A stretch of 64,000 nucleotides of DNA, from contig NZ_JAMYXM010000005.1 of the NCBI RefSeq assembly GCF_024158145.1, positions 1-64,000 on the forward strand, written 5' to 3'. The stretch is from Notoacmeibacter sp. MSK16QG-6 (GTDB taxonomy: Bacteria > Pseudomonadota > Alphaproteobacteria > Rhizobiales > Rhizobiaceae). Numbering within the stretch: position 1 is the first letter of the stretch; every line of letters begins with the position of its first letter. Below, one piece after another: positions 6,626-28,356 of this stretch. Under the pieces are notes generated by a model. That model saw only the letters and a list, made by a program, of their open reading frames with translations. It was not told the DNA's origin and searched no databases. A program made the translations under genes and the position numbers.

Positions 6626-6648
6626 CTCTTGTCTCCGTGTGCGGTGGT

Positions 6649-6900
6649 TCAGGCAGCGGCGCTGGGGGCCAGAAGATCGTTGGTCATCCGCACGATGGCG
6701 CGGGCACTGGCGAAATTGTCGGGTTTGATCTCGGTCAGCGGCACGGTGACGCCAAACTCGGCCTGAATGATTTCGATGAGGTCGAAAAATGTACTGGAAT
6801 CCAGAATGTTGAGTTCCAGCAGGGGCGTGTCGAGCGAGAGCTGTTCCTCAAGGCCCAGCGCGTAATTCTCGTTGAGAAGCGAAAGAATTTTCTTTTCCAT
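6649..6900 (-). CDS. pigG: Peptidyl carrier protein, PigG
   Basis: An 83-aa stand-alone carrier protein. The phosphopantetheine attachment Ser lies in NILDSSTFFDLIEII, following a typical carrier helix. It should carry prolyl and then pyrrolyl thioesters made by PigI and a PigA-type flavin oxidase, and donate them to PigJ. It starts 18 nt after the pigF stop. The ATG at 6900 is chosen because MEKKILSLL is a normal carrier N-terminus. Confidence 0.9.
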   Translation of the reverse strand: MEKKILSLLNENYALGLEEQLSLDTPLLELNILDSSTFFDLIEIIQAEFGVTVPLTEIKPDNFASARAIVRMTNDLLAPSAAA

Positions 6901-6918
6901 GGCTTGTCGGTCTCCTGG

Positions 6919-7938: not shown

Positions 7939-7946
7939 GGGCACTC

Positions 7947-10484: not shown

Positions 10485-10485
10485 G

Positions 10486-12918
10486 TCAGATGCCCTCCCG
10501 CGCGACGCGCATCGGCTTTGGCCGCGCCTGCTGGTGCTGCTGCCAGCCATTCACGTGGGCGAGCGACATCCCATCGCCTTCATTGTTATGAGCCAGATTG
10601 ACGGTGAACAGATTGATGCGTCCGCGTGTTCGAAGGGCGCGCTGCATGGCTTCGCGGTCGAACAGGTCGATGGTGCGGGTGACGACGCGATAGCCGCACA
10701 TATCCCGGTCCGATTCCGGGGTGGCGATGTTGAGGACGCGCATCTGCCGCGACGTTCGGTTGAAAAGGATGCGCTCCTGATAGGAATTGATCGCCGACAG
10801 GCCGCTATTGGACAGCACGAAAATCGAGATTGTCCGGTCGCGTCGCGGCCCGCTCGACAGGGCGTTCTCCAGAAGGCTCGGAAGGATGTCCGGGACCAGG
10901 GCGCGTGCGCCATCTCCCGCAAAGGTCAGCAGATCGGTCGGGCAGGTCCGTGCCAATGCCAGCGTCGCCATATAGGCATCGCCCATCAGCGCCCGCCCGT
11001 ACCAGCCCGAAAAGCCGGTGCGGGTTTTCGGCAGGTTTCGGATTGCCGAGACGCCGCAGCGTCCGACATCGTAAAGCCCGGTGAAATCGTAACCCTCGCG
11101 CTCGATCATATCGGTCAGCAGACGCCCGAGTGCGCCGAAGAAGTAGTTTGGCGTCATCGGCAGTGAGGGCAGGCAGCTCGAAAGATCTTCATGTCCGTCG
11201 CGTGCGGCGGCGATGGCGGCCAGCCTTTTGGCGCGCAGATCGGGCGGCACGTCGAGACGGCTTTCCAGCGCCAGAAGCGCCTCATGCGGATCGGCGACCA
11301 GCGCGATATCCGCGAAGGGAGCGATCAGGCCCGGCTCGTCGATCACCTGCGCGATCTGAAACTGCCGGTGTAGTTTGGCCTCGGTGAAGGGTGTAACGAC
11401 CTGGGAAATCTTGTCGCCCAGAAAGATCAGCGCCTGGCTGTCGCGGGGTGCGATGCGGCCGTCGCGATGCAGGAAGCGGTACACCGCGTCGCTGAAACCG
11501 TAGACGCTGAGTGTTCCAAGATGGTTGGGGCAGGGCGCGCCATCGAGATGTGTCGGCACCGTGCCGGGATGGATGATGCTATCGACCAGCGCGATACCCG
11601 CCCGGTCTGCGATCGAGACCAGCAGGCGCATCGTCTCCGGCCGCAACCTGCCAGGCTGGAGGAGTAGCCGGGACGGCCCCGAATTGATGAGTTCGACGAG
11701 CGGGACGAGCGTGCTCTCGTCAGGCTTCGACAGGGCAGGCACGGATAAGGAGGGCGCTTCGGCCGTTGTCTTCTCGGCCGCCTTGACGTTCAGCACCTGT
11801 TGCGTCGCCAGAATGAAGACCGGGCCGAGGCTTTCGTCATAGAGGCGCAGCGCGCGTTCGACCCCACGTTGCAGGTCGGCGGGATCGTCGAGATAGACAT
11901 AAGGGATGCGCCGGGCGCGCAACATTTCTCGGCTGTCGTTCTCCGGCGTGATGGTCGACTGAAAGGCGTACCACTGCGCCGGCTTCTGCTCTGCGCAGAT
12001 CACGAAGCCGCGTGCGCGCGCTTCGCACAGATTGGCCAATGTGCCGCGAAACTCATCGATCATGCCCGATGTGATGATGGTGACGGAGGGCATTTCGTAG
12101 AGCTGCCAGTTGGCCATCGCGCCACAGGCCAGAGAATGCTCGCTCGGCCCCCGCAGAACGGGGATGCCGCGCTCTTCCGCCAGTGTCTCGAATGCCGAGA
12201 TCAGGCTGGAGACGAGCGAGCCCGTGTAATATTGCAGCGTCCAGCGCCGGTCCGTCCGTTCATCGAGGAAGTTGCCGATCAGATCGGCCAGCGCGCTTGT
12301 CGGTTTGGCCCGGTCGCCGGCGCGGATGCGACGGTTGACGAGGCTGAGTTCGTAGAAATCCATCCACAGACACAGAAGCTGCGCGCGCAGTATGTCTGGA
12401 TCGCTTGGCAGCACGCACCGGATGAAATTCAACGGATGGACCTGATAGGGCAGGGGCTGCTGCGGCTGGAAGACGGCGGTTGAGGACGGGGTTTCGAATG
12501 CGGTCACGCGGCGTTCGCGCAGCGCGGCGTAAAAATCACGCAAGTCCCGGTCGATCTCCGCCATCGACCGTTCCGCATGATAGGGGCCGGAATAGTCAAC
12601 ATAGGCCATGCCGACATGGTGGACGTCACGGTTCCGCTGCACCGAAGCCAGCCTGTCGACTGCATTGGGAAGGCTCGGAGCCTGCACCACGTGCAGCGAA
12701 ATCCGGTCCTCTCCGCCCTTGATGAAACGCATCGCCCGGTCGCGAACCTTCAGATAGTGCGGACCGGGCTCCGGCATTGCAGCCAGCGGCACATCCCAGT
12801 CGCTATCGATGGTGACTTCGTCAAACAGGGCATCCTGCAAATCGGAAATCACCGACGCGCCCGCCTGGAAGAAGTCGGCGTTGCGCGTGACGACGATAAT
12901 GCTGACGCAGACATCCAT
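10486..12918 (-). CDS. pigD: Thiamine-diphosphate enzyme PigD (3-acetyloctanal synthase)
   Basis: An 810-aa ThDP-dependent enzyme. The N-terminal ~300 residues are poorly conserved (MDVCVSIIVVTRNADFF). The middle and C-terminal parts are acetolactate-synthase-like, with the ThDP/Mg region GDGARALVPDILPSL followed by FVLSNSGLSAIN. PigD joins pyruvate (decarboxylated) to a 2-octenal acceptor by Stetter-like 1,4-addition, starting the MAP branch. ATG 12918 is preceded by a CTGGAG Shine-Dalgarno. The gap to pigC is 31 nt. Confidence 0.88.
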   Translation of the reverse strand: MDVCVSIIVVTRNADFFQAGASVISDLQDALFDEVTIDSDWDVPLAAMPEPGPHYLKVRDRAMRFIKGGEDRISLHVVQAPSLPNAVDRLASVQRNRDVHHVGMAYVDYSGPYHAERSMAEIDRDLRDFYAALRERRVTAFETPSSTAVFQPQQPLPYQVHPLNFIRCVLPSDPDILRAQLLCLWMDFYELSLVNRRIRAGDRAKPTSALADLIGNFLDERTDRRWTLQYYTGSLVSSLISAFETLAEERGIPVLRGPSEHSLACGAMANWQLYEMPSVTIITSGMIDEFRGTLANLCEARARGFVICAEQKPAQWYAFQSTITPENDSREMLRARRIPYVYLDDPADLQRGVERALRLYDESLGPVFILATQQVLNVKAAEKTTAEAPSLSVPALSKPDESTLVPLVELINSGPSRLLLQPGRLRPETMRLLVSIADRAGIALVDSIIHPGTVPTHLDGAPCPNHLGTLSVYGFSDAVYRFLHRDGRIAPRDSQALIFLGDKISQVVTPFTEAKLHRQFQIAQVIDEPGLIAPFADIALVADPHEALLALESRLDVPPDLRAKRLAAIAAARDGHEDLSSCLPSLPMTPNYFFGALGRLLTDMIEREGYDFTGLYDVGRCGVSAIRNLPKTRTGFSGWYGRALMGDAYMATLALARTCPTDLLTFAGDGARALVPDILPSLLENALSSGPRRDRTISIFVLSNSGLSAINSYQERILFNRTSRQMRVLNIATPESDRDMCGYRVVTRTIDLFDREAMQRALRTRGRINLFTVNLAHNNEGDGMSLAHVNGWQQHQQARPKPMRVAREGI

Positions 12919-12949
12919 TTTCCGGACTCCAGACAGGCAGGAAAGCGTT

Positions 12950-15658
12950 TCAGGCCGTGGCGGCCGCAGGTTCGACTTCTTCAGGCATGGCGGCGGGGGC
13001 TTCGTTTTCCTGGCAGGATTCGAAGCTGACGATTCCGCTGTCGCCATCGATGGTGACGATGTCGCCGGTGCGGATGCGGGCCGTTGCGATGCGTGTGTTC
13101 ACCACCGCCGGAATGCCGAATTCGCGCGCCACAATCGAGCTGTGGGACAGGGCGGAGCCGATGTCAGTCACGACGCCCGCAGCCAGTGTGAAAAGCGGCG
13201 TCCAGGAGGCGTCGGTAAAGCGGGCGACAAGGATTTCGCCCTTGCGAAACTTGATCGCCTGCTTGGGCAGATCGGTGATGACGCGGGCGGGGCCGACCAC
13301 GACCCCGGGGCTGGCGCCGAGGCCCTTGACCTGACCGTCATTGTCCATGGCGGGCACGGCCGAGGCTGGCTTCGGCACGTAACCTCCGATCAGGCTCATC
13401 GGCGGCTCTTCGCTACGCAGATTGATGAGGTTTTCGCGCCGGTTTTTGAAGATCAGCTCGCGGCTGAAGGCTTCCTGCTCATCCATGCGGCCCGCCATAT
13501 AGTCGCGGAACCGGTTGAAATCGATGTAGGGAAAGTCGGAGACCTTCAGCACACCGCGCCGTTCCAGCCGTTCCAGCATTTCCACGATGATGCGGCGGTA
13601 GAACCACGTCTCGGCGATGAAGGCAGGGCGGACGCGTTCCCGTAGATCGGCCATCTTGGCGTAGGAACGAATGATGAATTTCAGCCCGAACCGTTCTTTG
13701 GATGGAAGTGTGGCGAGCAGACGCTCGGTTTCGCTGCCGCGCTCGGCCTCGCTGTCGGCCATCTTCTTTTCCAGCTCGACCTCGTTGACGAGATAGAGCC
13801 GGATCACGTCGAAGATGTAGCGTGGGTCATCGGCCCAGCGGGGGATGGTCAGTTCGAATTCCTGACGACCGCGTGCGCCGAACTCCTTCAGGAAAGCGGC
13901 GAAGTCGGTATCGAGAAAAGCGCGACCGTCCTCGCTCTGGCGCAGGGTCTCGACGATCTCGTCGGTCGGGGTCGCTTTTATGATCCGCGCCAGCGCGGGC
14001 TTCTGACGAACCGTCTCAGCCAGGTTCAATATGCCGCGCGTGACCTCGATCGTCCGCAGATTGTTGAGAGATGCCTTGATGCGGTTCTGCAGGCCATTGC
14101 CCTTGCCCTGGAACAGCGTCTCGCATTTTTCGGCCAGCGCATCGTAGAGCGCGAAGCTCTGCAGGAAGAATGGCATATAAGCGGCGCAGGCGTCGCGGAA
14201 GGCGGTGTCGATCCGCTCCAGTTCGCTGTTCAGCTCCTCGCGGGTCATGGCCGAAAGGTCCAGCCCAAGTGCGTGCTCGGTGCGGCGACGGCGCTGTTGC
14301 TCCATCTTTTTGGCGGTCCGCTCGGCCGTCGTCAGATTATAGACCTGACGACCGGTCCAATAGGTCGCGCTCAACCCGTAATCGAGACCCTTGGGCGGCG
14401 TTCCGTAAGGATTGCGATAGGTGTCGAGATCGACCTCGTCGGTCGCGTATCGCGTTGTGAATTTGAGCGGATCGCGCGTCGGCGGGCATTGCGTGAGCAT
14501 ATGCGCCGAGGCCGAGATGTTGAGATAGACGTGGCCGCGCACATAGCCCATGAAGGTATGCGGCGCCATCATCTTGCGCAGGCCCATCGTCTTGACCGCG
14601 GGACCGTGAATTTCGTTCTGGTAGAACCGGCAGAAGGAAAGACCCAGCGGCGACATCAGCCCCGTGACGATCTCGCCGGTATCCATCCGCGAGAAAAGCG
14701 CGTTGTCGCGACGCACCGGATCGGTCTCTTCGGTATCGGCATAGACCTTGTCCGTCTCCGCTCTGGCCGTGGTGATCGGGCGGGCTTGCAGGATCCATAA
14801 TTTGCCGCGATGCATCGCCCACTCGATATCCAGTTCCTGACCCCGATAGGACTCGCTGGCCGACAAGCGCTTTGCCATTTCCGCCAGCGCGTGGACCTGT
14901 GCGGCGGTCAGTGTCGGCGCGTCGATCTTGTCTTCATCGGTCTCGACCAGTGCGATGCCGCCATCCGGCTGGCAAAGTGTGGACATCGCCTTGCCCCGGA
15001 TCACCTTGGACGCAAGGCTTAGATCGTCGCGGCGGACGATGAAGCTGTCGGTGCTGACCTGGCTGGACACCAGCCCTTCGCCGACGCCCCATGCCGCTTC
15101 GATGCGCATGCAGTCATCGTTTTCGCCCATCGGATCGATGGTGAAAAGAACGCCCGCTACATCGGCATCGACCATGCGCTGCACCGCGACCGCGATGGCT
15201 GGCTTTGCGCAGCTTTCCTCGCGCTTCGTTGCATAGCTGAGCGCGTGATTGGCGAAGAGCGAGGCCCAGCATTCCTTGACCGCGGCGATGATCGCATCGG
15301 CCCCGCGCAGGTTCAGACGGGTCAGAAACTGGCCGGCATAGGAACTCTGGTCGGAATCCTCGGCAGCGGCGGAAGAGCGGACCGCAACCGGCGCGTCGCC
15401 CAGTTCGTCGCAGATCGCGCGCAATTGCTGTTCCAGATCCGCCGGCATGACGCCTCTGACAATCGCACTGGCAAGATTATCGAGGCCGGGCTTATCCAGC
15501 CCGTTCTTCTCAAGAAAGTGCGCAAAGGCTTCGGTCGTGATGCAGAACGCTTCCGGGACGGGCATGCCCTCGGCCACCATCCGGTCGAGCGACATCGCCT
15601 TGCCGCCCAGAACTTCGCGTCCCCCCTGTGCATTGCCATCGAGTTTCGTAACGAACAT
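12950..15658 (-). CDS. pigC: Prodigiosin synthetase (PEP-synthase-like ligase), PigC
   Basis: A 902-aa protein built like pyruvate phosphate dikinase/PEP synthase: an ATP-grasp part (about 1-330; LGGKAMSLDRM, VRSSAAAEDSDQSSYAGQF) and a C-terminal swivelling domain with its phospho-acceptor His in ALSHSSIVAREFGIPAVV. PigC is the ATP-dependent condensing enzyme joining MBC and MAP into prodigiosin. The start at 15658 follows AAGGAG at good spacing. Similar enzymes condense MBC with other amines or pyrroles, so the exact product cannot be read from sequence. Confidence 0.9.
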   Translation of the reverse strand: MFVTKLDGNAQGGREVLGGKAMSLDRMVAEGMPVPEAFCITTEAFAHFLEKNGLDKPGLDNLASAIVRGVMPADLEQQLRAICDELGDAPVAVRSSAAAEDSDQSSYAGQFLTRLNLRGADAIIAAVKECWASLFANHALSYATKREESCAKPAIAVAVQRMVDADVAGVLFTIDPMGENDDCMRIEAAWGVGEGLVSSQVSTDSFIVRRDDLSLASKVIRGKAMSTLCQPDGGIALVETDEDKIDAPTLTAAQVHALAEMAKRLSASESYRGQELDIEWAMHRGKLWILQARPITTARAETDKVYADTEETDPVRRDNALFSRMDTGEIVTGLMSPLGLSFCRFYQNEIHGPAVKTMGLRKMMAPHTFMGYVRGHVYLNISASAHMLTQCPPTRDPLKFTTRYATDEVDLDTYRNPYGTPPKGLDYGLSATYWTGRQVYNLTTAERTAKKMEQQRRRRTEHALGLDLSAMTREELNSELERIDTAFRDACAAYMPFFLQSFALYDALAEKCETLFQGKGNGLQNRIKASLNNLRTIEVTRGILNLAETVRQKPALARIIKATPTDEIVETLRQSEDGRAFLDTDFAAFLKEFGARGRQEFELTIPRWADDPRYIFDVIRLYLVNEVELEKKMADSEAERGSETERLLATLPSKERFGLKFIIRSYAKMADLRERVRPAFIAETWFYRRIIVEMLERLERRGVLKVSDFPYIDFNRFRDYMAGRMDEQEAFSRELIFKNRRENLINLRSEEPPMSLIGGYVPKPASAVPAMDNDGQVKGLGASPGVVVGPARVITDLPKQAIKFRKGEILVARFTDASWTPLFTLAAGVVTDIGSALSHSSIVAREFGIPAVVNTRIATARIRTGDIVTIDGDSGIVSFESCQENEAPAAMPEEVEPAAATA

Positions 15659-15677
15659 TCGTCTTCTCCTTGAGGCT

Positions 15678-17300
15678 TCAGCCTGTCTGGCGGGTGAGGT
15701 TCGACGCGGCCATCGGAATGGCCTGCGCGAGTTGGGAGGCGGCGCGCTGGCCGCTTTCGATCGCGGCTTCCAGGCAACCGACGCCGATACTGTCCTGATT
15801 GGCGAAGGCGATTGCCCCAAACGGCGCGCTTGCGCGAACGAAGAGATCGTCCGCGACCTGGCCGGGTCGTGGCGAGACGAGACCGTGCGGCCATAGGTGA
15901 AGCCGCACGTCCTCCAGCACGGACGGATCGGCGCCGATGGCCGCCAGGGTCCGGCGAATTTCGACTTCCGCCTCGGCGCGTAGGGTCGTTTCGTCCGTCC
16001 TTGTCAGCTTGCCCTGATCGGCGCGCTGGGGGACGGGCTTCAGGAAGGAGAGCCCGCCGGCTTCTTTGGTGCCGGGCAGGGCGCGCCAGCCCGCATTGAC
16101 CACGCCGCCAGCGCGGCAAAAGCCTGTTTTGGCCAGCTTGCCGGGTTTGTCGCCGATGAAGTAGCCGCCGAAATTGTCGGTCCAGACGGGTCGTTTGAGC
16201 CGCGCATTCGCAATGGCGTAATCCGAATATTCGATTTCGGCCATCGCTTCGCGCTGGGCGGTTGGCAGATCGGGAAGGAAGGACAGCGCCGCTTCCTTGG
16301 GCGTCGCCACGATCACGCCGTCGCAATTGATGGTCCGGGTCCGGTTGCCGCTCTGGAACGCCACGCGGTAGCCACGGTCCGTTGCGCGGATGCCTGTGAC
16401 ACGCGCTTCGGTCGAGAGGGTGACGTTCGGCTGGCTCTGCAGATGGTCGGCAAGCGCTTTAGACACCGCGCCATTGCCGCCGGGCAGTGCGACCAGATCG
16501 CCGTGAAGATAGCCGACCAGAAAATGCAGACCCACATAGGCCGAGCAGTTGTCGAGCAGCAGTCCCTCGACCTCCAGTGTCGTAGTCACGGCGAGCCTGA
16601 CGAGGCGGCCGAGACGGCGCGGTGGCTGGAGGTCTTCCGACAATTGCCGGGCGGTGGACGGCTCGAACAGGAACTGGCCGATGGTCATCCTGTCGAGCGC
16701 TTCCATCTCGGCGCGGGCAATGCCGCAATCGGGCGTCCATGGCACGGCCGGAAAGCGACCCTTGCCGGGACCTAGACGGTCGAGAAAGCGATAGAGTTCG
16801 GTGAAAATCGGCTCGCCGAGCGCCTTTGCGGCGGGGACGAGAGGGCGACCGGTCAGCGCCGCCGCCAGCAATCCGCCGGTCAGGCCCCAAACCTTCGGCT
16901 TCAGCAGCCATGACGGATGACGCAGAAGAGCCGCGCTCACTTCGTGCAGATTGCCGAGAAGGGCGCCGGTCCGGAACAGGACCTGCATGGCGGAGCCGGT
17001 CGAGCGCCAATCCGTTGCCAGATCGAACCGTTCGAGCAGTCGCTCGACATGGCCGCCGGGCAGCGGCGCGCGGAAACAGGAGCCGGCTGTCGGCTGCCTG
17101 ATATCGCGCCACGTCTCGTACCAAGCGTTTCCACCGGGTTCTTCCGATGCTTCGAGAATATCGATTCTTGCGCCGCGATCGTGCAGGTCGAGCGCCGCGC
17201 TGAGCCCGGCAAGCCCCGCGCCGACCACGACGAGGCGAGGTCGGTCCCCAGCGTCTTGGCGCGGGGCTTCGGTGTGGATCGAATCCGGATCGGCTAGCAT
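15678..17300 (-). CDS. pigB: FAD-dependent oxidoreductase, PigB-type
   Basis: A 540-aa flavin amine-oxidase/phytoene-desaturase-like protein. The dinucleotide motif VVVGAGLAGLSAALDLHDRG lies at about residues 24-43, with EASEEPGGNAW following and a C-terminal FAD contact GVGCLEAAIESGQRAA. PigB oxidises dihydro-MAP to 2-methyl-3-n-amylpyrrole (MAP). Its ATG overlaps the stop of the DoxX-like gene. The name comes from the operon order. Confidence 0.85.
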   Translation of the reverse strand: MLADPDSIHTEAPRQDAGDRPRLVVVGAGLAGLSAALDLHDRGARIDILEASEEPGGNAWYETWRDIRQPTAGSCFRAPLPGGHVERLLERFDLATDWRSTGSAMQVLFRTGALLGNLHEVSAALLRHPSWLLKPKVWGLTGGLLAAALTGRPLVPAAKALGEPIFTELYRFLDRLGPGKGRFPAVPWTPDCGIARAEMEALDRMTIGQFLFEPSTARQLSEDLQPPRRLGRLVRLAVTTTLEVEGLLLDNCSAYVGLHFLVGYLHGDLVALPGGNGAVSKALADHLQSQPNVTLSTEARVTGIRATDRGYRVAFQSGNRTRTINCDGVIVATPKEAALSFLPDLPTAQREAMAEIEYSDYAIANARLKRPVWTDNFGGYFIGDKPGKLAKTGFCRAGGVVNAGWRALPGTKEAGGLSFLKPVPQRADQGKLTRTDETTLRAEAEVEIRRTLAAIGADPSVLEDVRLHLWPHGLVSPRPGQVADDLFVRASAPFGAIAFANQDSIGVGCLEAAIESGQRAASQLAQAIPMAASNLTRQTG

Positions 17301-17949: not shown

Positions 17950-18063
17950 TGCTGATGATGGGGGCGAATGTTGAGGGTCGGTCACATACGCGTCTTACCC
18001 AAGGGAACGCGCCGCGACAGCTCAATTCGATCTGCAAATGCCCATGCAGAAGAGGACCCCGAA

Positions 18064-18678
18064 ATGCGAACGCTCATCATTGACGCCTACAATCTGGGGC
18101 GCAATCACGGATACTGGCTGGATCATCTGCGCCTGCGCCGCGAGATATTCGTCGACCGTCTCGGCTGGGAGCTGCCATGCACGGATGAGCTGGAATTCGA
18201 CTGTTTCGACACGCCCGCCGCCCATTACGTGCTGACCATCGATGACGACGACCGGGTCTGTGCCGTGTCGCGGCTTCTGCCGACCACCGTCCGTTACATG
18301 ATCGAGGAACTATGGCCGGACTGGCCTTACGACGGTTGCCCGCACAGCATGAAGGTGTGGGAGGCCAGCCGGTTCGGGTGTTCCGCTCACCTGACCCATG
18401 CCCAGCGGCAGGAAGCCATTCGGGTGCTTTTTCGCGAAATCTACACTTTCGGCCAGGACCACGGCATCGATCACTATATGATGGTGATGCCGAAATTCAT
18501 CTTCGAGCGCCTGATCCGCCCGAACGGCTATTGCGTCGAATATATCGGCGACAGTCGCAAGATCGACGGGGTTCTGACCTGTCTCGGCAAGGTTTCCATC
18601 AAAGCTGACAGAGCTGCCGATCCCGGATTGCTGCTGCCGGAGATGCGGCAATTCGATACGCCGGCGCGATCGGCGTAA
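18064..18678 (+). CDS. luxI: LuxI-family acyl-homoserine-lactone synthase
   Basis: A 204-aa autoinducer synthase. Conserved family residues are visible: the Arg/Phe pair in LRLRREIFVDRLGW, the following Trp, acidic residues in ELEFDCFD, Arg in VSRLLPTT, and the Glu-Arg pair in KVWEASRFG. It makes an N-acyl-homoserine lactone from SAM and an acyl-ACP. ATG 18064 follows AGAGGACCCCGAA. It faces luxR convergently and is divergent from the pig operon, suggesting a quorum-controlled pigment. Confidence 0.9.
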   Translation: MRTLIIDAYNLGRNHGYWLDHLRLRREIFVDRLGWELPCTDELEFDCFDTPAAHYVLTIDDDDRVCAVSRLLPTTVRYMIEELWPDWPYDGCPHSMKVWEASRFGCSAHLTHAQRQEAIRVLFREIYTFGQDHGIDHYMMVMPKFIFERLIRPNGYCVEYIGDSRKIDGVLTCLGKVSIKADRAADPGLLLPEMRQFDTPARSA

Positions 18679-18679
18679 T

Positions 18680-18691
18680 GGCCGCTCGGCC
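18680..18691. terminator. Short hairpin between convergent luxI and luxR
   Basis: GGCCGCTCGGCC is self-complementary and fills part of the 30-nt gap between two converging stop codons. No T-run follows, so a terminator role is only suggested by place. Confidence 0.25.
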
Positions 18692-18708
18692 TTCGTATTG
18701 AGGGCGCT

Positions 18709-19407
18709 TTACAGCGGTATGATGCCGTTACGCATGGCCTTGACGATGGCGAAGGTCCGGCTGCTGGCAGAGAGCTTTCGCATGGCGCTTTTCAGATGAA
18801 AATCGACGGTGTTGCTGCTGATTTCGAGGATCGCCGAAATGTCGTTGGAGGTCTTTCCGAGAGCGCACCAGCTAAGGCACTCGACTTCGCGCTGCGTGAG
18901 GTCGAAGCAGCCGCTTTCGATGGCGGCGGGGGAGGGGCCGAGCGTGGAGAGCGCCTGCACGGAATTGGCCGCTTCCTTGATGACCATATTGTTCAGCGTC
19001 CGCTCGCCGGATGACGCCAGCGAGACGATCATCAAACTGCCATCGAGATTGTGGATGCTCATGCAGATGCCGGAACGCAATCCGAAATCTCTGGCGCAAT
19101 TGAGAACCGAGCGATGGTCCTTGCTGAAACCGGAGGCCAGTTCGAGCTTTTCCCAGGACACCGGATAGGAGACCATTCGCCCGAAATACATGACGGGATC
19201 GAAATTATGCAGTTGATTTGATATATAGTGATTTAGCCATTCATTCGGATAGTTGGTCGTATGGGCAATTGGCAGGGAATTACACAACCCAAAATCGTTG
19301 GCATTGATGGAACACACCGCATAATAGTCGAAATCGAGTTTCGATAGAACGCTTTCGACAATTGTCTGCAGCGATTCGACATATTCCTCGGTCGTGACAT
19401 TTGCCAA
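18709..19407 (-). CDS. luxR: LuxR-family quorum-sensing regulator
   Basis: A 232-aa regulator. The N-terminal autoinducer-binding domain keeps the usual Trp, Tyr, Asp-Pro and Trp positions (NEWLNHYISNQ, FDPVMYFG, SWEKL). The C-terminal LuxR HTH is LTQREVECLSWCALGKTSND...NTVDFHLKSAMRKL. The start is a TTG at 19407 with GGAGG nine bases upstream, and no in-frame ATG exists before residue 74. Likely ligand source is the neighbouring LuxI, likely targets the two inverted motifs upstream of luxI and the pig operon. Confidence 0.88.
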   Translation of the reverse strand: MANVTTEEYVESLQTIVESVLSKLDFDYYAVCSINANDFGLCNSLPIAHTTNYPNEWLNHYISNQLHNFDPVMYFGRMVSYPVSWEKLELASGFSKDHRSVLNCARDFGLRSGICMSIHNLDGSLMIVSLASSGERTLNNMVIKEAANSVQALSTLGPSPAAIESGCFDLTQREVECLSWCALGKTSNDISAILEISSNTVDFHLKSAMRKLSASSRTFAIVKAMRNGIIPL

Positions 19408-20673: not shown

Positions 20674-20755
20674 ATCCCTGCCGGTCTGACATGTCTTGAT
20701 TGCTGCTTGCTGGGGCGAACGACAATCTGTTGTGACAAATTGGTACGAAAAACGG

Positions 20756-20780
20756 TGGCAGGATATATTCGGGTGTCGTC
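20756..20780 (+). repeat. T-DNA left-border-like repeat
   Basis: The first 15 bases, TGGCAGGATATATTC, match the conserved start of Agrobacterium left borders as I remember them (TGGCAGGATATATT in nopaline plasmids, GGCAGGATATATTC in octopine TL). The remaining ten bases (GGGTGTCGTC) share the GGTGT element of the nopaline left border. A relaxase nick would fall after base 20758. Confidence 0.6.
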
Positions 20781-20812
20781 GCTCCTCCCCTCCTTAGCTC
20801 GCAAGCTCGCAC

Positions 20813-20917
20813 GGAGGGGCCCCTCCGCGCCGCCACCCTCATATCCTGTTTTATTTTTTGAGAATTTATTGCGCTTGGCGCTTATTAAGCGCGTAGCGCG
20901 CGGCTACTTGCGCCAAG
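20813..20917. repeat. Palindrome cluster beside the left border
   Basis: Several nested dyads: GGAGGGGCCCCTCC (20813-20826, perfect); an inverted border core CATATCCTG (20840-20848) that pairs with CAGGATAT of the left border across a GC-rich loop; GCGCTTATTAAGCGC (20878-20892); and CTTGGCGC (20874-20881) pairing with GCGCCAAG (20910-20917), enclosing GTAGC/GGCTAC. Two AATAAA signals read on the minus strand at 20850-20855 and 20865-20870, downstream of the HAD gene. Role unknown: transfer origin structure, transcription end, or both. Confidence 0.45.
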
Positions 20918-21139
20918 GGCGATTACGATCACGTCATCTCATGCACAAGAACGGGTTTGAGCAACTTCTATTCGATTGGTTGCTATCTGATGGAGAGCCT
21001 AAAGCTCTGAACTAAACTAAAAGAGTGTGGTGCCCACGCTACGTGCCGTGAGCCAAACAAAAACAGAATTCAAAACAAAGACAGACCATTCGTTCTTCGC
21101 ACCCTGTCGCCATACATCCGGGTCAAGAGGCGGAGAGAC

Positions 21140-21956
21140 CTACTCGTCGGCGATGCAGACATCGCGGAACCAGTCGAGAATATCGACCATGTCGTCAGGG
21201 GTCCGAACGACGCGGTACTGCTTGTAGGCGTTCTTGACCATGATGCCGAGATCAGCGGCATCGAGCATCGGACCATCGGTATTGGCGCTGTCGCCGGCAG
21301 CCACGGTGTACATGCCCTTATATTCCTCGGTGTTGAGAACCTGTCGAAGAGAGGTCGCCTTGCTGAGGCTCTTCAGAGTGATGTCGACAAAACCGGCCGT
21401 GTGCTCGACGATGAATTTGGCGTTGCGAGCCTGACGATCCATGAGATCAACCACCTGCTGCTTCTGAACAGCCGGAACATCGTTCTCGAAACCGACCGCA
21501 TAGCCAGCGGTCTTTTTGTTGAACACGAAGCGGTAGCTCAGCGTGCCGAGGAGCTGCTGCATCTCCGCCTGGAAGCCAGCTGCCTCAGCGGGAGCCGGAA
21601 GGCGGGTTTCCTTGCCGTAGATGCGCATGGACATGCCCTTCTCCGTGACGAGGTTTTGATAGTTGCCGCCACCAATCCTGTTCACATAGTCGCCAGCCTG
21701 AGCGGTGATGAGGACAATGTGGTTGGGAATGTCGCGCATGATGGAAAGGATCTTGGGGCCGAGATTGCCACCGGGGGCGGTCAGAGTGCCATCGATGTCG
21801 AGAGCCCAGATCAACTGCTATCGTCAGAACACATCATCGATTTATTTTGGCTCGACTTACCTTGCGGCGCTGGGAGACGATAGTCTCGGCGATCTGGCTG
21901 CCGACGCGGCCGACCGCACGCGGGTCAACGCGAAGCTCAGCCAAGGTCTTAGGCAT
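21140..21956 (-). CDS. HAD-superfamily phosphatase, eukaryote-style gene with one intron
   Basis: Exon 1 is 21956-21861 (32 codons, from MPKTLAELRV to SQRRK), the intron is 21860-21815, and exon 2 is 21814-21140; spliced product 256 aa. HAD motifs are clear: LDIDGTLTAPGG (motif I), VLITAQAGD (II), a lysine in SLSKATSLRQVL (III) and AAGDSANTDGPMLDAA (IV), as in Cof/sucrose-phosphatase-like type IIB enzymes. Read as bacterial DNA, it would need a TTG right after a stop with no Shine-Dalgarno. Exon 1 starts in an ACATCATGCC context after a CT-rich leader, as in fungal genes. Substrate unknown. Confidence 0.65.
21815..21860 (-). other. Putative 46-nt spliceosomal intron in the HAD gene
   Basis: On the minus strand it opens with GTAAGT, has the branch-site match TTCTGAC, and ends GATAGCAG. 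It carries in-frame stops (TGA, TAG), so unspliced mRNA cannot encode the enzyme. The phase-0 junction AAG|TTG joins exon 1 to the HAD frame exactly. Confidence 0.65.
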
Positions 21957-22654
21957 GATGTCGGTGTCGGGGTTGGTTGAGTTGGGAGAAGTTTGAAGTC
22001 CAATTTCGAATGAAGATTGTGAGAAGTGAGAAGAGTGATGATGGTGAGGAATGGAAGACGAAAAGGACGAGGGGAGGCGGGCCTTTTATCTTCGAACGAG
22101 GGCGGACAACGGAGCAATTATCTCTCCGAGGCTCGGACAGCGCCGGCCAATCAGCTTGCGCCGATCTGAGCAGATTTTTCGTGCAGGATGGCGTGGGGCA
22201 GAAAGCTCGTATTCGCTTCGCCAAGTCCGGAAGGATCGGCATCCGGTTTCAGCTGAGGCGTCATTTGCGCAGGTTTTCGGCGAGGCCGAAATGATGATCG
22301 CCGATCCTCAGACAATCACACCACTCTTTCAGGCCGCGCCTTCCTTGGCGGGCGGGGTCGTGACACATCGCCTCGCAAGCGAGATAAGGACTGTCTCACA
22401 TTCGCAGAAATGGCCTGATTTCGTGTCCGAGATGACGTGGTCAGACACATCATGTGCCCAGACATCCGCGTAAGCCGGAGAGCTGTTCCTCCGCCTTGGT
22501 CCTCTCTCCCCGACGACGGCTCAGACTGAAATATTTACACCGTTCCAACCTAGTCCTCTCGGCTCTAGTCGACTTCGGCTACAAAAATTCTCATCGCCAA
22601 TCATCCCAGACTTTGCAAAATCGTCCTGCAACACCGACAAGCAAATTCATCGTC
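21957..22654. promoter_or_regulatory. Shared divergent promoter region, eukaryotic in character
   Basis: About 700 nt with no supported gene between the two start codons. It contains a CCAAT element in GGCCAATCAG (22145-22154), a TATA-like GATAAAAG on the minus strand (22083-22090) about 130 nt before the HAD start, and pyrimidine-rich leaders before both ATGs (CTTCTCACTTCTCACAATC on the HAD side, CCTCTCTCCCC on the other). No Shine-Dalgarno stands before either ATG. Confidence 0.5.
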
Positions 22655-23198
22655 ATGGCCGAGTACGTTTCCAACACGCTCGACACCGACTTCGGTTTGG
22701 CCCCGGAGCAAGTGAGGGCCATCAGGGAGCATGTCGCCCGCAAGAAAGTAAGTGCCTTCACTTATCGAGAGAAGAAATGTGCTGACGGCAAAGCTCGTTG
22801 TTCACATCGCTCACTTCGACCGTTATTCCGGTAAGGCCGACCGGGTCAGCGACTTCAAGCCGGATCATGGCAAAGCCGCGACCCTTCGTCAGGCTTGCGC
22901 TCTTTACGCCTATCCATGGATCGCTACGGCCTGGTGCGGCCCTAAGATGCTCGAAGAGGACAAGCTCTTTCGCGCCATCGAGGGCTCCATCGGCATTGGC
23001 GATACGTCTCCCAGGTTTACGAAGCTTCACGCGGCTTTTCTTGTTCAGATCGTTCCGTCTGACGCTTCCAACGATGATAATATCGAGGGACCCAAGACGG
23101 CGGACATCAAGATCAACTGGTCGGTTGCGGAGGGTGACAAGAAGATCAAGGATTTTCTAGCGGCGCTCGCCACGGAGTATCAGACGCCTGTCCATTAG
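22655..23198 (+). CDS. Unknown 165-aa protein, eukaryote-style gene with one intron
   Basis: Exon 1 is 22655-22747 (31 codons, MAEYVSNTLDTDFGL to ARKK), the intron is 22748-22793, and exon 2 is 22794-23198. The spliced protein has a helical N-terminus, then LVVHIAHFDRYSG and IKINWSVAEGDKKIKDFL near the end. No family was recognised and no signal peptide or membrane segment is seen. Without splicing the frame stops soon after the intron. It is divergent from the HAD gene, and its intron matches that gene's in length and position. Confidence 0.55.
22748..22793 (+). other. Putative 46-nt spliceosomal intron in the 165-aa gene
   Basis: It begins GTAAGTGCC, has the branch-site match GCTGAC, and ends GGCAAAG. 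The 3' end is AAG rather than CAG/TAG, a less common but accepted acceptor. Removal joins AAA|CTC in phase 0 and fuses two frames that otherwise do not meet. Length and phase equal those of the HAD-gene intron. Confidence 0.55.
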
Positions 23199-23348
23199 GA
23201 GGAAGGAGATGCCCAGATCGACGATTGTTCGGCTAGATGGATGGAGGCAGTCAGTCATTACCGCAGATAGTTTGAATACGATCCTTACCTGATTTTCGAA
23301 TATGACTGTCCCACGATCCCGTGATTTTCCGTGCAGGCCAAGCGCCGA

Positions 23349-23446
23349 TCATGTGACCTTTGCCAAGCTGCCCCGCTACATCATGTGACCTTCGATTTTT
23401 CGATCCTCGATGCCAAGAAAATGGGTCATGTGACCTCTCACGTGAG
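23349..23446 (+). repeat. Three TCATGTGACCT repeats plus a CTCACGTGAG palindrome
   Basis: TCATGTGACCT occurs at 23349-23359, 23381-23391 and 23426-23436, followed directly by CTCACGTGAG (23437-23446), an E-box palindrome (CACGTG). The spacing is 32 and 45 nt. They lie just inside the right border-like repeat and downstream of the 165-aa gene. They resemble binding sites for a dimeric factor, but which one, and in which cell, is unknown. Confidence 0.5.
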
Positions 23447-23454
23447 TACCCCCA

Positions 23455-23479
23455 GCTCAGGATATATAATGGCGTCACC
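23455..23479 (+). repeat. T-DNA right-border-like repeat
   Basis: GCTCAGGATATATAATGG followed by CGTCACC carries the same CAGGATATAT core as the left copy, in the same orientation. TGGCG follows, as in nopaline right borders (CAGGATATATTGGCGGG, from memory), with two extra A residues. It is a weaker match than the left copy, and the core also resembles a TATA box, so alone it would not be convincing. Confidence 0.45.
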
Positions 23480-23843
23480 TTCATTCCTGTATTCGTTCGT
23501 CAGACTGTAAGAGTCTTTTCGTCTATCGTTTGAATGTATGATCACACGTCTGATCGTTTGTTTGTGCGGTTGATGGTTTGGTTATGCGTTGGTGCAGCCA
23601 TAAATCCCTTCCTGCGAAAGTTCGTTCGTACCTATCTTTGTCCGTGCGGCATCCGGTATCGTCCGGATTTCAGCGAAAAATATCGACAAAGCATGTAGCG
23701 GCTGAGGTGCGGCGCGAAAATAATATCGGAATTTCTGCATCTGATTAACGATCATTTAAGCCTGCTGGCGAATTCTTGCAGCTGAAAATTGGCATGACGG
23801 CCAGGGTTCGCGCCATGACGGCGTCGTTTTTAGCAGGTGAATT
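23480..23843. other. Intergenic between the right border and the chemoreceptor
   Basis: No gene is supported here. The first part is T/G rich (overdrive-like motif). The part after about 23640 has the base character of the neighbouring bacterial DNA and holds the leader of the chemoreceptor gene, ending in an AGGTGA Shine-Dalgarno. Confidence 0.5.
23556..23564 (+). promoter_or_regulatory. Overdrive-like motif outside the right border
   Basis: GTTTGTTTG equals the core of the octopine-plasmid overdrive (TATGTTTGTTTG, from memory), the VirC1-binding enhancer of T-strand formation found outside right borders. It sits 77 nt beyond the border-like repeat, in a T/G-rich stretch. Chance occurrence of nine bases is quite possible. 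Confidence 0.35.
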
Positions 23844-26276
23844 ATGCTCTCGCGCTTTCGCTTCGGTCCGCGCATCGCTGTCGCGGCGACCCTTCTCATC
23901 ATCGCTGCGGTCGGGGCGACAGGCATTGCGGCGATCACGATCTCCTCATCGGCGCTGAAGGCAAAATCCTTCGACCGGTTGAGCGCGATAGCGGATGGCC
24001 GGCGCAATCAGCTGCAGAGTTATCTGGATAGTATCCGCCTCGATCTGGAAGGGCTGGCGTCCAGCCGGGACACCATCAACGCCACAATGTATTTTTCCGG
24101 CAGCTATGCCGGGACGGGCGACGATCCGACCGCCACACTGCAGGACCGCTATATTCATTCCAACCCAAACGAGACCGGCAAGAAGGACGAACTCGTCACA
24201 GCCGATAGCGGCGATCAGTACGATTCACTGCACAAGAAATACCATCCGGGTTTCCGCGAGCACCTGATCGATCGCGGCTATTACGATATCTTCCTTTTCA
24301 ACACCGAAGGCGATCTCGTCTACACCGTGTTCAAGGAAACGGACTACGCCACGAACCTGATCGACGGCAAATGGGCCGATAGCGGTCTCGGCCGGGTCTA
24401 TCGCGCCGCGATGGAACTGGAGACCAACGACGAATTCGTCTTCGACGATTTTGCGCCCTACGCCCCCTCGAACGGCGCGCCAGCCTCGTTCATCGCGACG
24501 CCCGTGATCGATTACAAGGGCAACAAGATCGGCGTTCTGGCCTATCAGATGCCTGTCAGCGCGATCGCATCGATCATGTATAACACGACCGGCCTCGGCC
24601 AGTCCGGTGAAACCGTGCTGCTGAACCAGAACGGCGTCATGATCACGGATTCGCAGAAGACCGATGCGGTGGAGACGCTGGCCGTCAAGCTGAATATTCC
24701 TCAGGCCGCCGAACTGACGCCCGACAATCTCATCACGGCGGAATTCGATGGCTATCGCGACATGCACTCCGATATCGCGCTGGCCGAGGTTCCCTTTTCC
24801 GGCGCGCACTGGGCCGTCGGCGCCCTGATGGACGATGCTGAAATTCTGAAGGGCGTCGCCTCTCTTCGAAATTTCATCGCACTCATTGCTCTGGCCGTTC
24901 TAATCGCCGGCATCGCTGCCGCCGTGCTTTTCGCGCGCAGCCTGTCAAAGCCGATCCAGAAACTCGTCGATCAGATGGAGACGTTGGCCGATGGCGACAC
25001 CGACATCGAACTGGAGAACGAGCGCGCGGACGAAATCGGCGACATGGCCCGCTCGGTCGCCGTCTTCCGCGATGCGGCAATCGACAAGGCGCGACTGGAA
25101 ATGGAAGCCGAAGAGAACCGTAGTCTGAGCGAACGCGAGCGCGCCGAACGCGATGCGGCCAAGGCCGAAGAACGCGCCCGGATGCAGGAGGCGGTCGACG
25201 CCCTCGGCGGCGGGCTGACGGCGCTTGCCCATGGCGATCTGACGGTCCGCCTGGACGATCCGTTCATGGAGAGCCTCGATGCGCTGCGCATCAACTTCAA
25301 CTCCTCAGTCGAGAAGCTGAACGAGACGCTCGGTGAAATTCAGCAGATTTCGTCAACGCTCGATTCCAATGCCCAGGAGGTCCGCTCGGCCACTGGCGAT
25401 CTGTCTCGCCGCACAGAGCAGCAGGCCGCCTCACTGGAAGAGACATCGGCTGCGCTGGAAGAGATCACCGCAACTATCAAGGAAAGCTCGCAAGGCGCTT
25501 CAGAGATGGCATCGATTGCCAATCTGGCCAAGTCCGACGCCGACGAATCCGCCGATGTCGTCCAGCGCGCCGCCACGGCGATGGAGGATATCGAAAGCGC
25601 AAGCAAGGAGATCGCTTCCATCACCGATGTGATCGAGGACATCGCCTTCCAGACCAACCTGCTGGCGCTGAATGCCGGGGTCGAAGCTGCGCGCGCCGGA
25701 GAGGCGGGGCAGGGCTTTGCCGTCGTCGCGCAGGAAGTTCGCGAACTGGCGCAGCGCACAACGGTCGCGGCCAAGGAGATTCAGGATCTGATCAGCAAAT
25801 CCGGCGAGCGCGTGGCCAATGGCGGCGAACTGGTGCGGGCGGCTCGCGATGCCCTCGGCAAGATTGCCGGCCACGTCACCGAGATCAACACACGCATCAC
25901 GGCTATCGCCACGGCGAGCAGCGAACAGCTGACAGGTGCCCAGGAAATCAACAGCGCCATCAGTCAGATCGACGAGGTCACACAGCAGAATGCCGCCATG
26001 GTGGAAGAGACCACGGCCGTGTCGCATAGTCTCGCCGCCGATGCGGAGCGCCTGACGGGCGTCGTCGGCGAGTTCAGCCTGACGGGCGTCGCAGCGGCCC
26101 CGGTGGCCGCGCCGAGGCAGCAGGCCAAGCCATCGCCCCGCGCGATTACGCCCGCCAATGAGGAGGCGGCGCCCCCGTCACCGGCGCGCAAGCTGGTCAA
26201 TACGCTGACCAGTGCGTTCTCCTCCAAGGGATCGGCCGCCATTGCAGTGGATCAGGAGGAATGGGCCGAGTTCTGA
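23844..26276 (+). CDS. Methyl-accepting chemotaxis protein with Cache-type sensor
   Basis: An 810-aa chemoreceptor. TM1 is about 10-33 ([20 protein letters not shown]); a large periplasmic sensor of dCache type spans about 40-330; TM2 is about 341-365; HAMP ([20 protein letters not shown]) and a second HAMP-like unit follow to about 490. The signalling domain has the hairpin tip [34 protein letters not shown]. The C-terminal WAEF may serve as a CheR/CheB tether. The ligand is not predictable. AGGTGA precedes the ATG. Its end is followed within 65 nt by an IS3 remnant. Confidence 0.93.
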
Positions 26277-26337
26277 TCGTTTCAAACTTTTGGGCGGCGA
26301 CCGCCATCTTCCGGTGTCGTTAGGAGAGAAGAGCGGT

Positions 26338-26721
26338 CGCCGAGGTTCAGCCATCGGGGAGAAGATGTCGTCGCAACGCTGGAACGGACATGCCGGTTGG
26401 TCGGCTATCCCAAGACGATCCGGGTCGACCAGGGCTCGGAGTTCATCTCCCGTGACCTTCATCTGTAGGCCTACGCCGATGACGTCACACTCGACTTCTC
26501 GCGGCCGGGAAAGCCCACGGATAACGCGTTCATTGAGTCTTTCAACGGCAAGTTCAGGACGGAATGCCTCAATGCGCACTGGTTCCTGACGCTTGACGAC
26601 GCCCGTTTGAAAATGGAGGAATGGCGTAGGGACTACAACAATGTCCGCCCGCACAGCGCCATCGGCAACAAGCCGCCGATATCGCTCATGAAAGGCTCAT
26701 CGTCGGCTTCCGCTGCATGAG
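26338..26721 (+). pseudogene. IS3-family transposase remnant (OrfB C-terminus)
   Basis: Conceptual translation gives the rve integrase core of an IS3-type OrfB from GEDVVATLERTCRLVGYPK to PHSAIGNKPPISLM, with the catalytic Asp in IRVDQGSEF and Glu in NAFIESFNGKF. An in-frame TAG interrupts it after SRDLHL (26466-26468). The N-terminal two thirds, including the first Asp, is missing, so it is dead. The element's outer end is probably in GGGGCGGTCCAAAGAGGGG near 26740-26765. Confidence 0.85.
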
Positions 26722-27006
26722 CCATCACCCCTGGAAGTTCCGGTTCGGGGCGGTCCAAAGAGGGGTAGCACCTCACAAAGTGAACAGGGCTAGCCTATGA
26801 ATGGGTACAGTCAGGGGAGCAGGTTATATTGTTTCAATATGCCTATTGCGACCTGCGGCCGTCTTCGGCCACCCCGTTCGAAATATGCTTTGGATCGAGC
26901 GCGGTTCTTGGGCCGGATGTCGTTGAGGCGGCGCCAAGCGTGACAGAAGCTCTGATTTGAGCGATATTTGTAGTGCATCGAAAGGGAGGAATTCGATCAC
27001 GCCGAT
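26722..27006. other. Intergenic upstream of the cox cluster
   Basis: It holds the presumed terminal sequence of the IS3 remnant and then the leader of coxC. GGGAGG lies about 22 nt before the coxC ATG. No other feature is supported. Confidence 0.5.
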
Positions 27007-28167
27007 ATGATTACGCCGACCTATGACTACCTTCTGGTGGCAGCATCTATCCTCGTGTCGCTGATGGCGTCATTTACTGGCCTGACGCTGACCAAGGGTA
27101 TTTCAGCACTGCCGAGAGGTCGACGCAAGATACAGATCGTCATGGCGTCGCTGGCGCTTGGCGGCGGCATCTGGTCGATGCATTTCGTCGCCATCCTGGC
27201 GATGCGCTTTCCGCTGCCGATAGACTATGATGCATTCTACACGCTGGGATCCGCGCTGATCGCCATCCTGATGGCGGGCATCGCGCTCCTGATCATGCAT
27301 TTTGCGCCAAGGACATGGTTAGGCCTGATCACCGCCGGCGTCGTACTCGGCAACGGCATCGTCGTCATGCACTATGTCGGCATGTCGGCGATCCGCGGTT
27401 GCCTGCCGCTTTACGAACCGACGGGCATAGCGTTCGCCGTCGGTGGGGCGTCGATCATGGGCGTTACCGCTGTCGGCGTCGCCTATGCGAAACGCGATAC
27501 GGCCCATATTCTGGCGGGCACGATGATCTTCGGCTCTTCGGTCGTCGTCGTGCATTTCCTGGCGATTTTCTGGACCAGCTTTCGGATCTCTGGCTCAGTC
27601 GTGACCGACATAAACCCGCTAATCGAGAACGGCACGCTGGCGCTTCTGGTGATGTTTTCCGCATTTGTGATCTGCGGCACCTTCCTTCTCGCGTCGACCA
27701 ACTACGTGTTTGCCGATTTCGAAGAAGCGGCAATCGCTGACGGGACCATCGAGATGTCAGGGGATGCGCGACCGGAAATCGACCCATCGCTAGCCGAAAA
27801 GGCTCTGAGCGAGGCGTTCGTGCCGAGCGGCGGCGCACCGCGCATTCCGTATGAGCGCGACAAGCGCACGTCCTTCATCCCGGCGGATCAGGCGATCGCC
27901 CTACGTGCGGAAGGACACTACACGGTGGTCTACACGCATGATGAAGAGCTGTTCTGCCCGTGGTCGATCTCACAAGCGGAAAAACGATTGCCGGATGCGC
28001 TCTTCCTGCGCACGCACCGGAGCTATCTCGTCAACATCAGCCAGGTGACAGGTTTCGAGCGCCACAAGGACAGCGGTTCCTGCCATTTCGACGGCGTCCA
28101 GTCGCTAAAACTCGCGCCCGTCAGTCGTGGCAACGTCGCAGGCGTGCGCGAAGCCCTCGGGCTCTGA
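27007..28167 (+). CDS. coxC: MHYT sensor-LytTR regulator, CoxC/CoxH-type
   Basis: A 386-aa protein. The N-terminal ~235 residues are a seven-helix MHYT domain with the repeated Met/His motifs IWSMHFVAIL, VVMHYVGMSA and VVVHFLAIFW, proposed to bind copper and sense O2, CO or NO. The C-terminal ~100 residues form a LytTR DNA-binding domain (AEGHYTVVYT, LFLRTHRSYLVNI). This architecture is that of CoxC and CoxH of Oligotropha. It precedes coxM by about 190 nt and probably regulates the cluster or acts as its membrane sensor. Confidence 0.88.
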   Translation: MITPTYDYLLVAASILVSLMASFTGLTLTKGISALPRGRRKIQIVMASLALGGGIWSMHFVAILAMRFPLPIDYDAFYTLGSALIAILMAGIALLIMHFAPRTWLGLITAGVVLGNGIVVMHYVGMSAIRGCLPLYEPTGIAFAVGGASIMGVTAVGVAYAKRDTAHILAGTMIFGSSVVVVHFLAIFWTSFRISGSVVTDINPLIENGTLALLVMFSAFVICGTFLLASTNYVFADFEEAAIADGTIEMSGDARPEIDPSLAEKALSEAFVPSGGAPRIPYERDKRTSFIPADQAIALRAEGHYTVVYTHDEELFCPWSISQAEKRLPDALFLRTHRSYLVNISQVTGFERHKDSGSCHFDGVQSLKLAPVSRGNVAGVREALGL

Positions 28168-28356
28168 TCTGCACCCGGTTTTGGAGCCAGTCAACAAGCT
28201 TTCGCGGTTCGTGCAGCCAGATCGCGTTTCGTGAAATCGGCCTCGCCCGCCATGGATTAGCGGTCGCCAGCTTCGGTCCGGCCCATATTCTTCCGATCGT
28301 GCGGACATGCAACTCAATCCGGCCAAACCGGTGTGTCCGACATGCGGGAGGAAGGC
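28168..28356. promoter_or_regulatory. Leader upstream of coxM
   Basis: A 189-nt gap inside an otherwise tight cluster, so a cox structural-gene promoter is likely here. No operator was recognised. GGGAGGAAGGC immediately precedes the coxM ATG. Confidence 0.35.

Follow-up and report, generated by a model that had tools for sequence, protein, structure and literature searches.

Spliceosomal-type introns in a putative natural T-DNA on a plasmid of Notoacmeibacter sp. MSK16QG-6

Why would a gene on a bacterial contig carry what looks like a spliceosomal intron? The question is raised by the first 64,000 nucleotides (nt) of contig NZ_JAMYXM010000005.1 of Notoacmeibacter sp. MSK16QG-6 (RefSeq: GCF_024158145.1), a whole stretch that we call the window. 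The genome (G000) comprises 3.54 Mb and the contig of the window (C11) 214.5 kb. A first-pass annotation had proposed that a HAD phosphatase gene in the window is interrupted by an intron and that the gene either is destined for a eukaryote or stems from one. We consider it highly probable that the 46 nt intron is of the spliceosomal type and lies in a natural transferred DNA (T-DNA) of 2.7 kb, the enzyme of which would make an opine-like sugar in a eukaryotic host. The HAD gene has the following parts:

21861..21956, minus strand: HAD exon 1, 32 codons from ATG
21815..21860, minus strand: HAD intron of the spliceosomal type, 46 nt, GTAAGT..CTGAC..CAG, predicted at the same position in homologues on tumour-inducing (Ti) plasmids (pTi) and A. 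vitis plasmids (pRv)
21140..21814, minus strand: exon 2 of the HAD phosphatase gene including the stop (Pfam Hydrolase_3, 43 bits, cut-off 20.9)

Removing the 46 nt, which run from GTAAGT to TAGCAG as the annotation had described, fuses the HAD frame in phase 0 to the 32-codon exon that begins with ATG, for a protein of 256 amino acids (aa). The CTGAC that had been named close to the acceptor is present and stops 8 nt short of the intron end. As TAGCAG holds AG twice, a 43 nt intron ending at TAG is equally good in frame. By eye, no Shine-Dalgarno-like sequence is seen ahead of the ATG or of the TTG at which the downstream frame begins, and for the TTG this agrees with the annotation. One detail had to be amended, namely that the TTG stands directly after an in-frame TAG: the TAG exists and one CAG codon lies between the two.

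A second intron of the same length was found in the divergent gene of the unit, here called gene 2 (22655-23198):

22655..22747, plus strand: gene 2 exon 1
22748..22793, plus strand: gene 2 intron, 46 nt, GTAAGT..CTGAC..AAG, with further in-frame acceptors
22794..23198, plus strand: gene 2 exon 2 including the stop; spliced product 165 aa, of no known family

The acceptor of gene 2 was chosen as the first in-frame AG, 7 nt past CTGAC. Five of the nine AG listed keep the frame (products of 165, 151, 143, 132 and 114 aa), so the frame alone cannot single out one acceptor. The chosen one has AAG before C, and RAG acceptors followed by Y are given as a rarer type in Fusarium, with 2.18%, in the part of PMC5677156 cited here. 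The gene 2 product has no Pfam match and no PDB match up to E 1, and its matches among plasmid records are at chance level (E 2-7). Both introns show GT-AG ends, a branch site and a restored frame. The HAD intron structure appears to exceed chance, because there is a second 46 nt intron in the divergent gene and because homologues have an intron at the same codon boundary.

These homologues were found with a tblastn search of 72,556 plasmid records, in which the HAD protein matched six, three Rhizobium Ti plasmids (48.6-49.5% identity) and three A. vitis plasmids (42%). Among genomes HAD relatives are limited to one of 201 and one of 394, in both cases the window's own. We read the gene in four of the six plasmid homologues (pTiB230/85, pTi6.2, pTiL51/94 and pRvVAR0630c), and all four have a predicted intron at the codon boundary and in the phase of the window's intron. 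The homologous introns measure 68 nt in the three Ti plasmids and 52 nt in pRvVAR0630c, so that none of the lengths 46, 68 and 52 nt is divisible by 3. Across the three aligned proteins the intron stands in phase 0, after a Lys codon and right before the DxDGT motif, and the motifs DIDGT, LSKA and TDGPML are invariant. Frame, splice signals and motifs are thus kept across three lineages at 42-50% identity. The remaining two A. vitis records align in two pieces at 97.7%, the value that pRvVAR0630c itself gives against its spliced protein. On each of the four plasmids that were read, the bacterial start given in the annotation lies downstream of the DxD motif, so that the motif is lost. Bacterial homologues starting at the same TTG had been named as the finding that would speak against an intron; the four homologues have the intron there instead. 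Two viral-contig matches (L003 and L004) were set aside as too short, with 43% identity over just 47 residues, and an archaeal match (L025, 26%) was too distant and was left unused.

The two intron genes are enclosed by a pair of border repeats, with a promoter region between them:

20756..20780, plus strand: left T-DNA border TGGCAGGATATATTCGGGTGTCGTC, fitting the class pattern CAGGATATATNNNNRYGTCR; homology to the T-DNA of a congener (G001) begins at 20753
23455..23479, plus strand: right T-DNA border GCTCAGGATATATAATGGCGTCACC, fitting the class pattern; the right-border end of G001 is homologous
21957..22440, minus strand: putative promoter and leader region upstream of HAD, with GATAAAA at about 22090; shares 80% identity with the sequence ahead of NeuC in G001

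The unit therefore spans 2.7 kb (20756-23479) with direct 25-bp border repeats at both ends, on the same strand, and has a GC content of 55.1% vs 60.6% for the contig. The border core CAGGATATAT lies at 20759 and 23458, and exact copies of this 10-mer number two on C11 vs 0.08 expected under a dinucleotide model. Compared with classical borders, the left border agrees at 20 of 25 positions and the right border at 15, and both carry CAGGATATAT. We derived CAGGATATATNNNNRYGTCR from the two window borders together with the right borders of pTiB230/85 and pTi6.2. It has exactly two matches in the 3.54-Mb genome, both of them the borders of the unit, and its reversed control has none; since the pattern was partly built from the window borders, this count is not independent evidence, and the match in G001 described below is.

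The Ti cassettes have the same layout. Their borders are same-strand and lie 2.7 kb apart in pTiB230/85 (where one border departs from the 10-mer at one position), 2.6 kb apart in pTiL51/94 and 4.7 kb apart in pTi6.2, where two transposase genes stand between them. The divergent partner gene of pTiB230/85 carries an intron-like stretch of 71 nt. A comparison of this partner with gene 2 did not support homology (BLASTP E 0.18; 27% in a forced alignment). In the part of PMC10410297 cited here, pTi6.2 is reported with a single T-DNA, and positions 170,901-170,925 upstream of iaaM are given as a "potential left border". These positions (L007 6411-6435) appear to be the right border of an HAD cassette that has not been described, and the main text of PMC10410297 contains no words beginning with "intron" or "splic".

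On pRvVAR0630c we observed a second T-DNA-like unit between border-like repeats at 71.1-76.3 kb (L014, approximately 23100-28256), in which an 857-aa ornithine-decarboxylase-like gene is accompanied by one of 380 aa, and three CCCTAA repeats stand beside a border. The passages of PMC10811719, which deals with the A. vitis strain, contain nothing on the T-DNA of pRvVAR0630c.

A T-DNA needs a transfer system, and candidates for one lie on the same contig. Searching C11 by tblastn with pRv and pTiB230/85 proteins (VirB7 was not among the queries) gave relatives of RepABC, VirB1-B6, VirB8-B11, VirC1, VirC2, VirD1, VirD2 and VirD4. VirB4 and VirB11 are 80% and 83% identical to those of pRv, VirD4, VirC1 and VirD1 reach 76%, 71% and 47% with the pRv and pTi queries, and VirD2 is 44% identical to pTi over residues 6-203. 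The contig thus appears to hold the relaxase pair VirD1/VirD2 and a VirB/VirD4 channel as well as the unit that they would mobilise. Predicted eukaryote-directed effectors are present too, as VirE3 (35 bits, cut-off 20.3) and VirD5 (140, cut-off 25) score above their Pfam cut-offs, as does the relaxase domain; VirE2 falls below its own. Amid the vir genes we noted a 526-aa open reading frame (ORF; C11:156109-157689) with KRGRRD near its start, possibly another effector.

What could be gained from such a transfer is suggested by an operon at 165.6-174.5 kb of C11, about 142 kb from the T-DNA, which consists of LacI, substrate-binding, two permease, two ATPase and DhaK genes. It is 73-85% identical to its pRv counterpart (LacI 56%), and on pRv and pTi the homologous LacI/ABC/DhaK operon lies next to HAD. 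This recurrence with HAD points to a cognate catabolic operon on the plasmid, as in opine systems.

The congener G001 provides a comparison with another cargo. Counting that of the window, nine of the 394 genomes of the family contain a VirB4 relative at E 1e-200, and we searched the border pattern in these nine and in a further congener (G002), allowing one mismatch. Exact matches occur only in G000 and G001 among the ten genomes, two in each and on one strand, and the controls gave 0. With one mismatch there is one match in G000 (on another contig), three in G049 and two in G242; those in G049 (G049:C61:33447, 54106 and 58081) are border-like repeats that all lie on the same strand of a single contig, each with one mismatch. 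The G001 borders lie 2.3 kb apart, compared with 2.7 kb in G000, on a contig of 154 kb whose Vir and Rep backbone is the same. The two units share three pieces only, which are the left-border end (75%), the HAD promoter side (80%) and the right-border end (76%), and the promoter piece is found in two of 394 genomes, G000 and G001.

In place of HAD, G001 carries a 384-aa gene that scores 276 with the NeuC equivalog model (cut-off 235.9). NeuC converts UDP-GlcNAc to ManNAc. Among the three congeneric genomes NanE is present in G001 and absent from G000 and G002, and it sits on the T-DNA contig, where NanE, NagA (above its cut-off), a NanK-like kinase and sugar ABC genes lie within about 13 kb (G001:C2:129-143 kb). 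With NeuC in the T-DNA of G001 and NanE, NagA and the NanK-like kinase on its plasmid, the cargo and the matching sugar genes seem to change together.

The host clues lean to fungi. The window introns (46 nt, 41-46% GC, CTGAC) lie within the intron statistics of Fusarium, which in the cited part of PMC5677156 are 42-529 nt with a median of 57 and CTRAY in 91%. Codon usage was compared with 22 hand-picked bacterial genes of C11, a check that the first-pass annotation had suggested. It gave a divided result: the leucine share CTC/(CTC+CTG) sets the T-DNA genes apart (HAD 0.80, gene 2 1.0, NeuC 0.82 vs 0.17-0.57 in bacterial genes), whereas A-ending codons (3-4% in HAD and gene 2, 7-15% in bacterial genes) and NCG codons do so only partly. 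The leader before the HAD ATG is C/T- or A-rich. A TTAGGG-type repeat stands beside one border of the second pRv unit; C11 has none. The TTAGGG repeat is found in fungi, and TTTAGGG in plants. Intron length, branch site and codon use together lean to fungi over plants, with other eukaryotes possible, and the pTi copies with their AT-rich introns may be adapted to plants.

We propose that VirD1/VirD2 would nick both borders and that VirB/VirD4 would send the strand into the cell of a eukaryote, probably a fungus, along with effectors of the VirE2-like, VirE3 and VirD5 types. There, both divergent genes would be transcribed from eukaryotic promoters and their introns spliced. Since the introns would be removed only in the host, no cell but a transformed one would make the HAD phosphatase. 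By taking the phosphate off a host sugar phosphate, the enzyme would yield a sugar acting as an opine, and the LacI-regulated ABC transporter and DhaK-type kinase of the plasmid would import this sugar and phosphorylate it again. Going by the kinase family, our guess for the product is a triose or tetrose sugar. There is about an even chance that we are looking at a T-DNA family for fungi, made up of small, partly intron-bearing units with swappable single-step sugar enzymes (HAD, NeuC), each with a sugar-uptake operon on the plasmid, from which Ti plasmids borrowed one for plants.

Other explanations for the locus differ in how much of this they account for. Horizontally captured eukaryotic DNA that persists on the plasmid as a passenger or relic would explain the eukaryote-like introns, leader and leucine codons, and the cargo genes could be of eukaryotic origin; in itself an earlier capture of HAD and gene 2 from a eukaryote is possible. 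As a full account we find capture improbable, because border repeats enclose the unit, the congener keeps the same frame of borders and promoter with another cargo, and the HAD frame, splice signals and motifs are conserved in the three lineages at 42-50% identity. An assembly chimera or contamination, in which a eukaryotic read was joined to the bacterial contig, would likewise put eukaryotic features into bacterial surroundings, yet both flanks are bacterial, homologous HAD genes are present on complete plasmid records of other strains and the congener plasmid has homologous borders and promoter, which makes this extremely improbable. We give equally little credence to an intron-less bacterial HAD gene read from the TTG at 21814 with fortuitous splice signals: the TTG frame does retain DxDGT in the window, but one unit holds two intron structures, the position recurs in homologues, a Shine-Dalgarno sequence is not apparent by eye, and the bacterial starts annotated on pTi and pRv lose the motif.

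A real T-DNA that is directed at plants instead of fungi deserves more weight, though we still think it unlikely. Plant-tumour Ti plasmids also carry the HAD cassette, there with introns that are rich in AT and measure 68 and 71 nt, and A. vitis is a grapevine bacterium. Plant introns are seldom as short as 46 nt, however, and the TTAGGG-type repeat beside the border of the second pRv unit is of the fungal type; the fit of the window introns (length, GC content and CTGAC) to the Fusarium statistics (the cited part of PMC5677156) also argues for fungi. Between the two options of the first-pass annotation, "meant for" a eukaryote is thus favoured over "came from" one, by the borders, the Vir relatives, VirE3 and VirD5, and the same intron in divergent copies on other T-DNA plasmids. 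The second intron gene, the borders and the T-DNA setting had gone unnoticed in that annotation.

Several observations weigh against a T-DNA for a eukaryotic host. The VirB4 of C11 is only 31% identical to that of pTiB230/85 and about 80% identical to those of pRv, Rhizobium and Sinorhizobium plasmids, so that the channel would come from another branch than the Ti VirB; it may be mainly conjugative, or serve conjugation too. VirA and VirG queries gave only generic two-component matches on C11 (25-32%), and a vir-box pattern has 0 matches there. VirE2 scores 25.2, under the Pfam cut-off of 27, and VirD2 199, under the NCBIfam equivalog cut-off of 623. VirD5 was found in G000 alone of the ten genomes searched, and not in G001, so the effector set varies. 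The right border agrees with the classical 25-mer at only 15 positions, and gene 2 has more than one usable acceptor. The NCG share of this gene, 0.37, is within the bacterial range, as is the share of A-ending codons in NeuC (14%). The NeuC gene of G001 has no intron, and the NanK-like kinase scores 260, under its cut-off of 283. The DhaK operon also occurs on Shinella, Ensifer and other plasmids. Both structure predictions were unusable (pLDDT 39). Nicking, transfer, splicing, the host, the substrate and the role of gene 2 are steps that we infer.

Compared with the T-DNA of Agrobacterium Ti and Ri (root-inducing) plasmids, the window unit is alike in its two direct borders with the CAGGATATAT core and in having Vir relatives and a catabolic operon on one plasmid. 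It differs in its intron genes, in borders ending RYGTCR and in the distant VirB4 (31%), and Pfam finds no oncogene family in HAD or gene 2, unlike in tumour plasmids. The HAD/hp cassette of the type VIII Ti plasmids pTi6.2, pTiL51/94 and pTiB230/85 is closer: the order border, HAD, divergent partner, border is the same, the HAD intron is at the same codon, a sugar operon stands beside HAD, and the pTiB230/85 partner has its intron-like 71 nt. There, HAD is 47-50% identical, the introns are longer and AT-rich, and the partner compares with gene 2 at E 0.18. The A. vitis plasmid pRvVAR0630c (with two further records of 98 kb) shares HAD, with an intron of 52 nt, border-like repeats, the sugar operon and a VirB near that of C11; its HAD is 42% identical, no gene 2 was recognised and it has the second T-DNA-like unit. 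As in opine synthesis and catabolism, the plasmid that would send out the enzyme gene also has genes for uptake and catabolism, although here the enzymes (HAD phosphatase, NeuC) would make sugars, the putative products, in a single step.

To our knowledge, natural T-DNA genes are intron-less and directed at plants, and literature searches by title and abstract opening gave no account of introns in natural T-DNA or of natural T-DNA for fungi. If our explanation is true, bacteria keep genes that they cannot correctly express by themselves, which would argue strongly that these genes are selected in a eukaryotic recipient. On the broader reading of a T-DNA family for fungi, bacteria would genetically colonise fungi for sugar opines. 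Were the recipient a fungus, Agrobacterium-style fungal transformation would be a natural lifestyle and not just a laboratory method. The pairing of NeuC and NanE makes the opine idea chemically testable in a simple way.

Further features in and around the unit are:

20757..20850, no strand assigned: possible weak hairpin taking in the left border (single-stranded DNA fold, z -1.95, equalled by 7 of 200 shuffles)
23555..23564, plus strand: weak overdrive-like CGTTTGTTTG outside the right border, one mismatch to the overdrive motif
17968..19407, both strands: flank with LuxI (plus) and LuxR (minus), Pfam Autoind_synth, Autoind_bind and GerE
23844..26276, plus strand: flank with an 810-aa ORF, a chemoreceptor by eye

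The overdrive-like motif is not above chance, as 48 of 100 shuffles reach its count. Inverted repeats accompany four of six left-border regions and none of five right-border regions; the window, for which no repeat of 14 nt was reported, and L008 are the two left-border regions without one. In the four, one arm of a repeat reaching into the T-DNA contains or adjoins the left border (L048 2328-2402, L005 10969-11082, L006 10943-11061 and L014, pRvVAR0630c, 28135-28254). Folding places the left border in or beside a hairpin in five units, weakly in the window and in G001 (z -2.8) and strongly in pRv (z -11.7 and -5.0) and pTiB230/85 (z -14.8); two right borders that were folded gave z -1.6 and -0.9.

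Beside LuxI and LuxR, positions 887-17300 of the window hold large minus-strand ORFs, by eye ketosynthase, AMP-ligase, amino-oxononanoate-synthase-like, methyltransferase and PEP-synthase-like.
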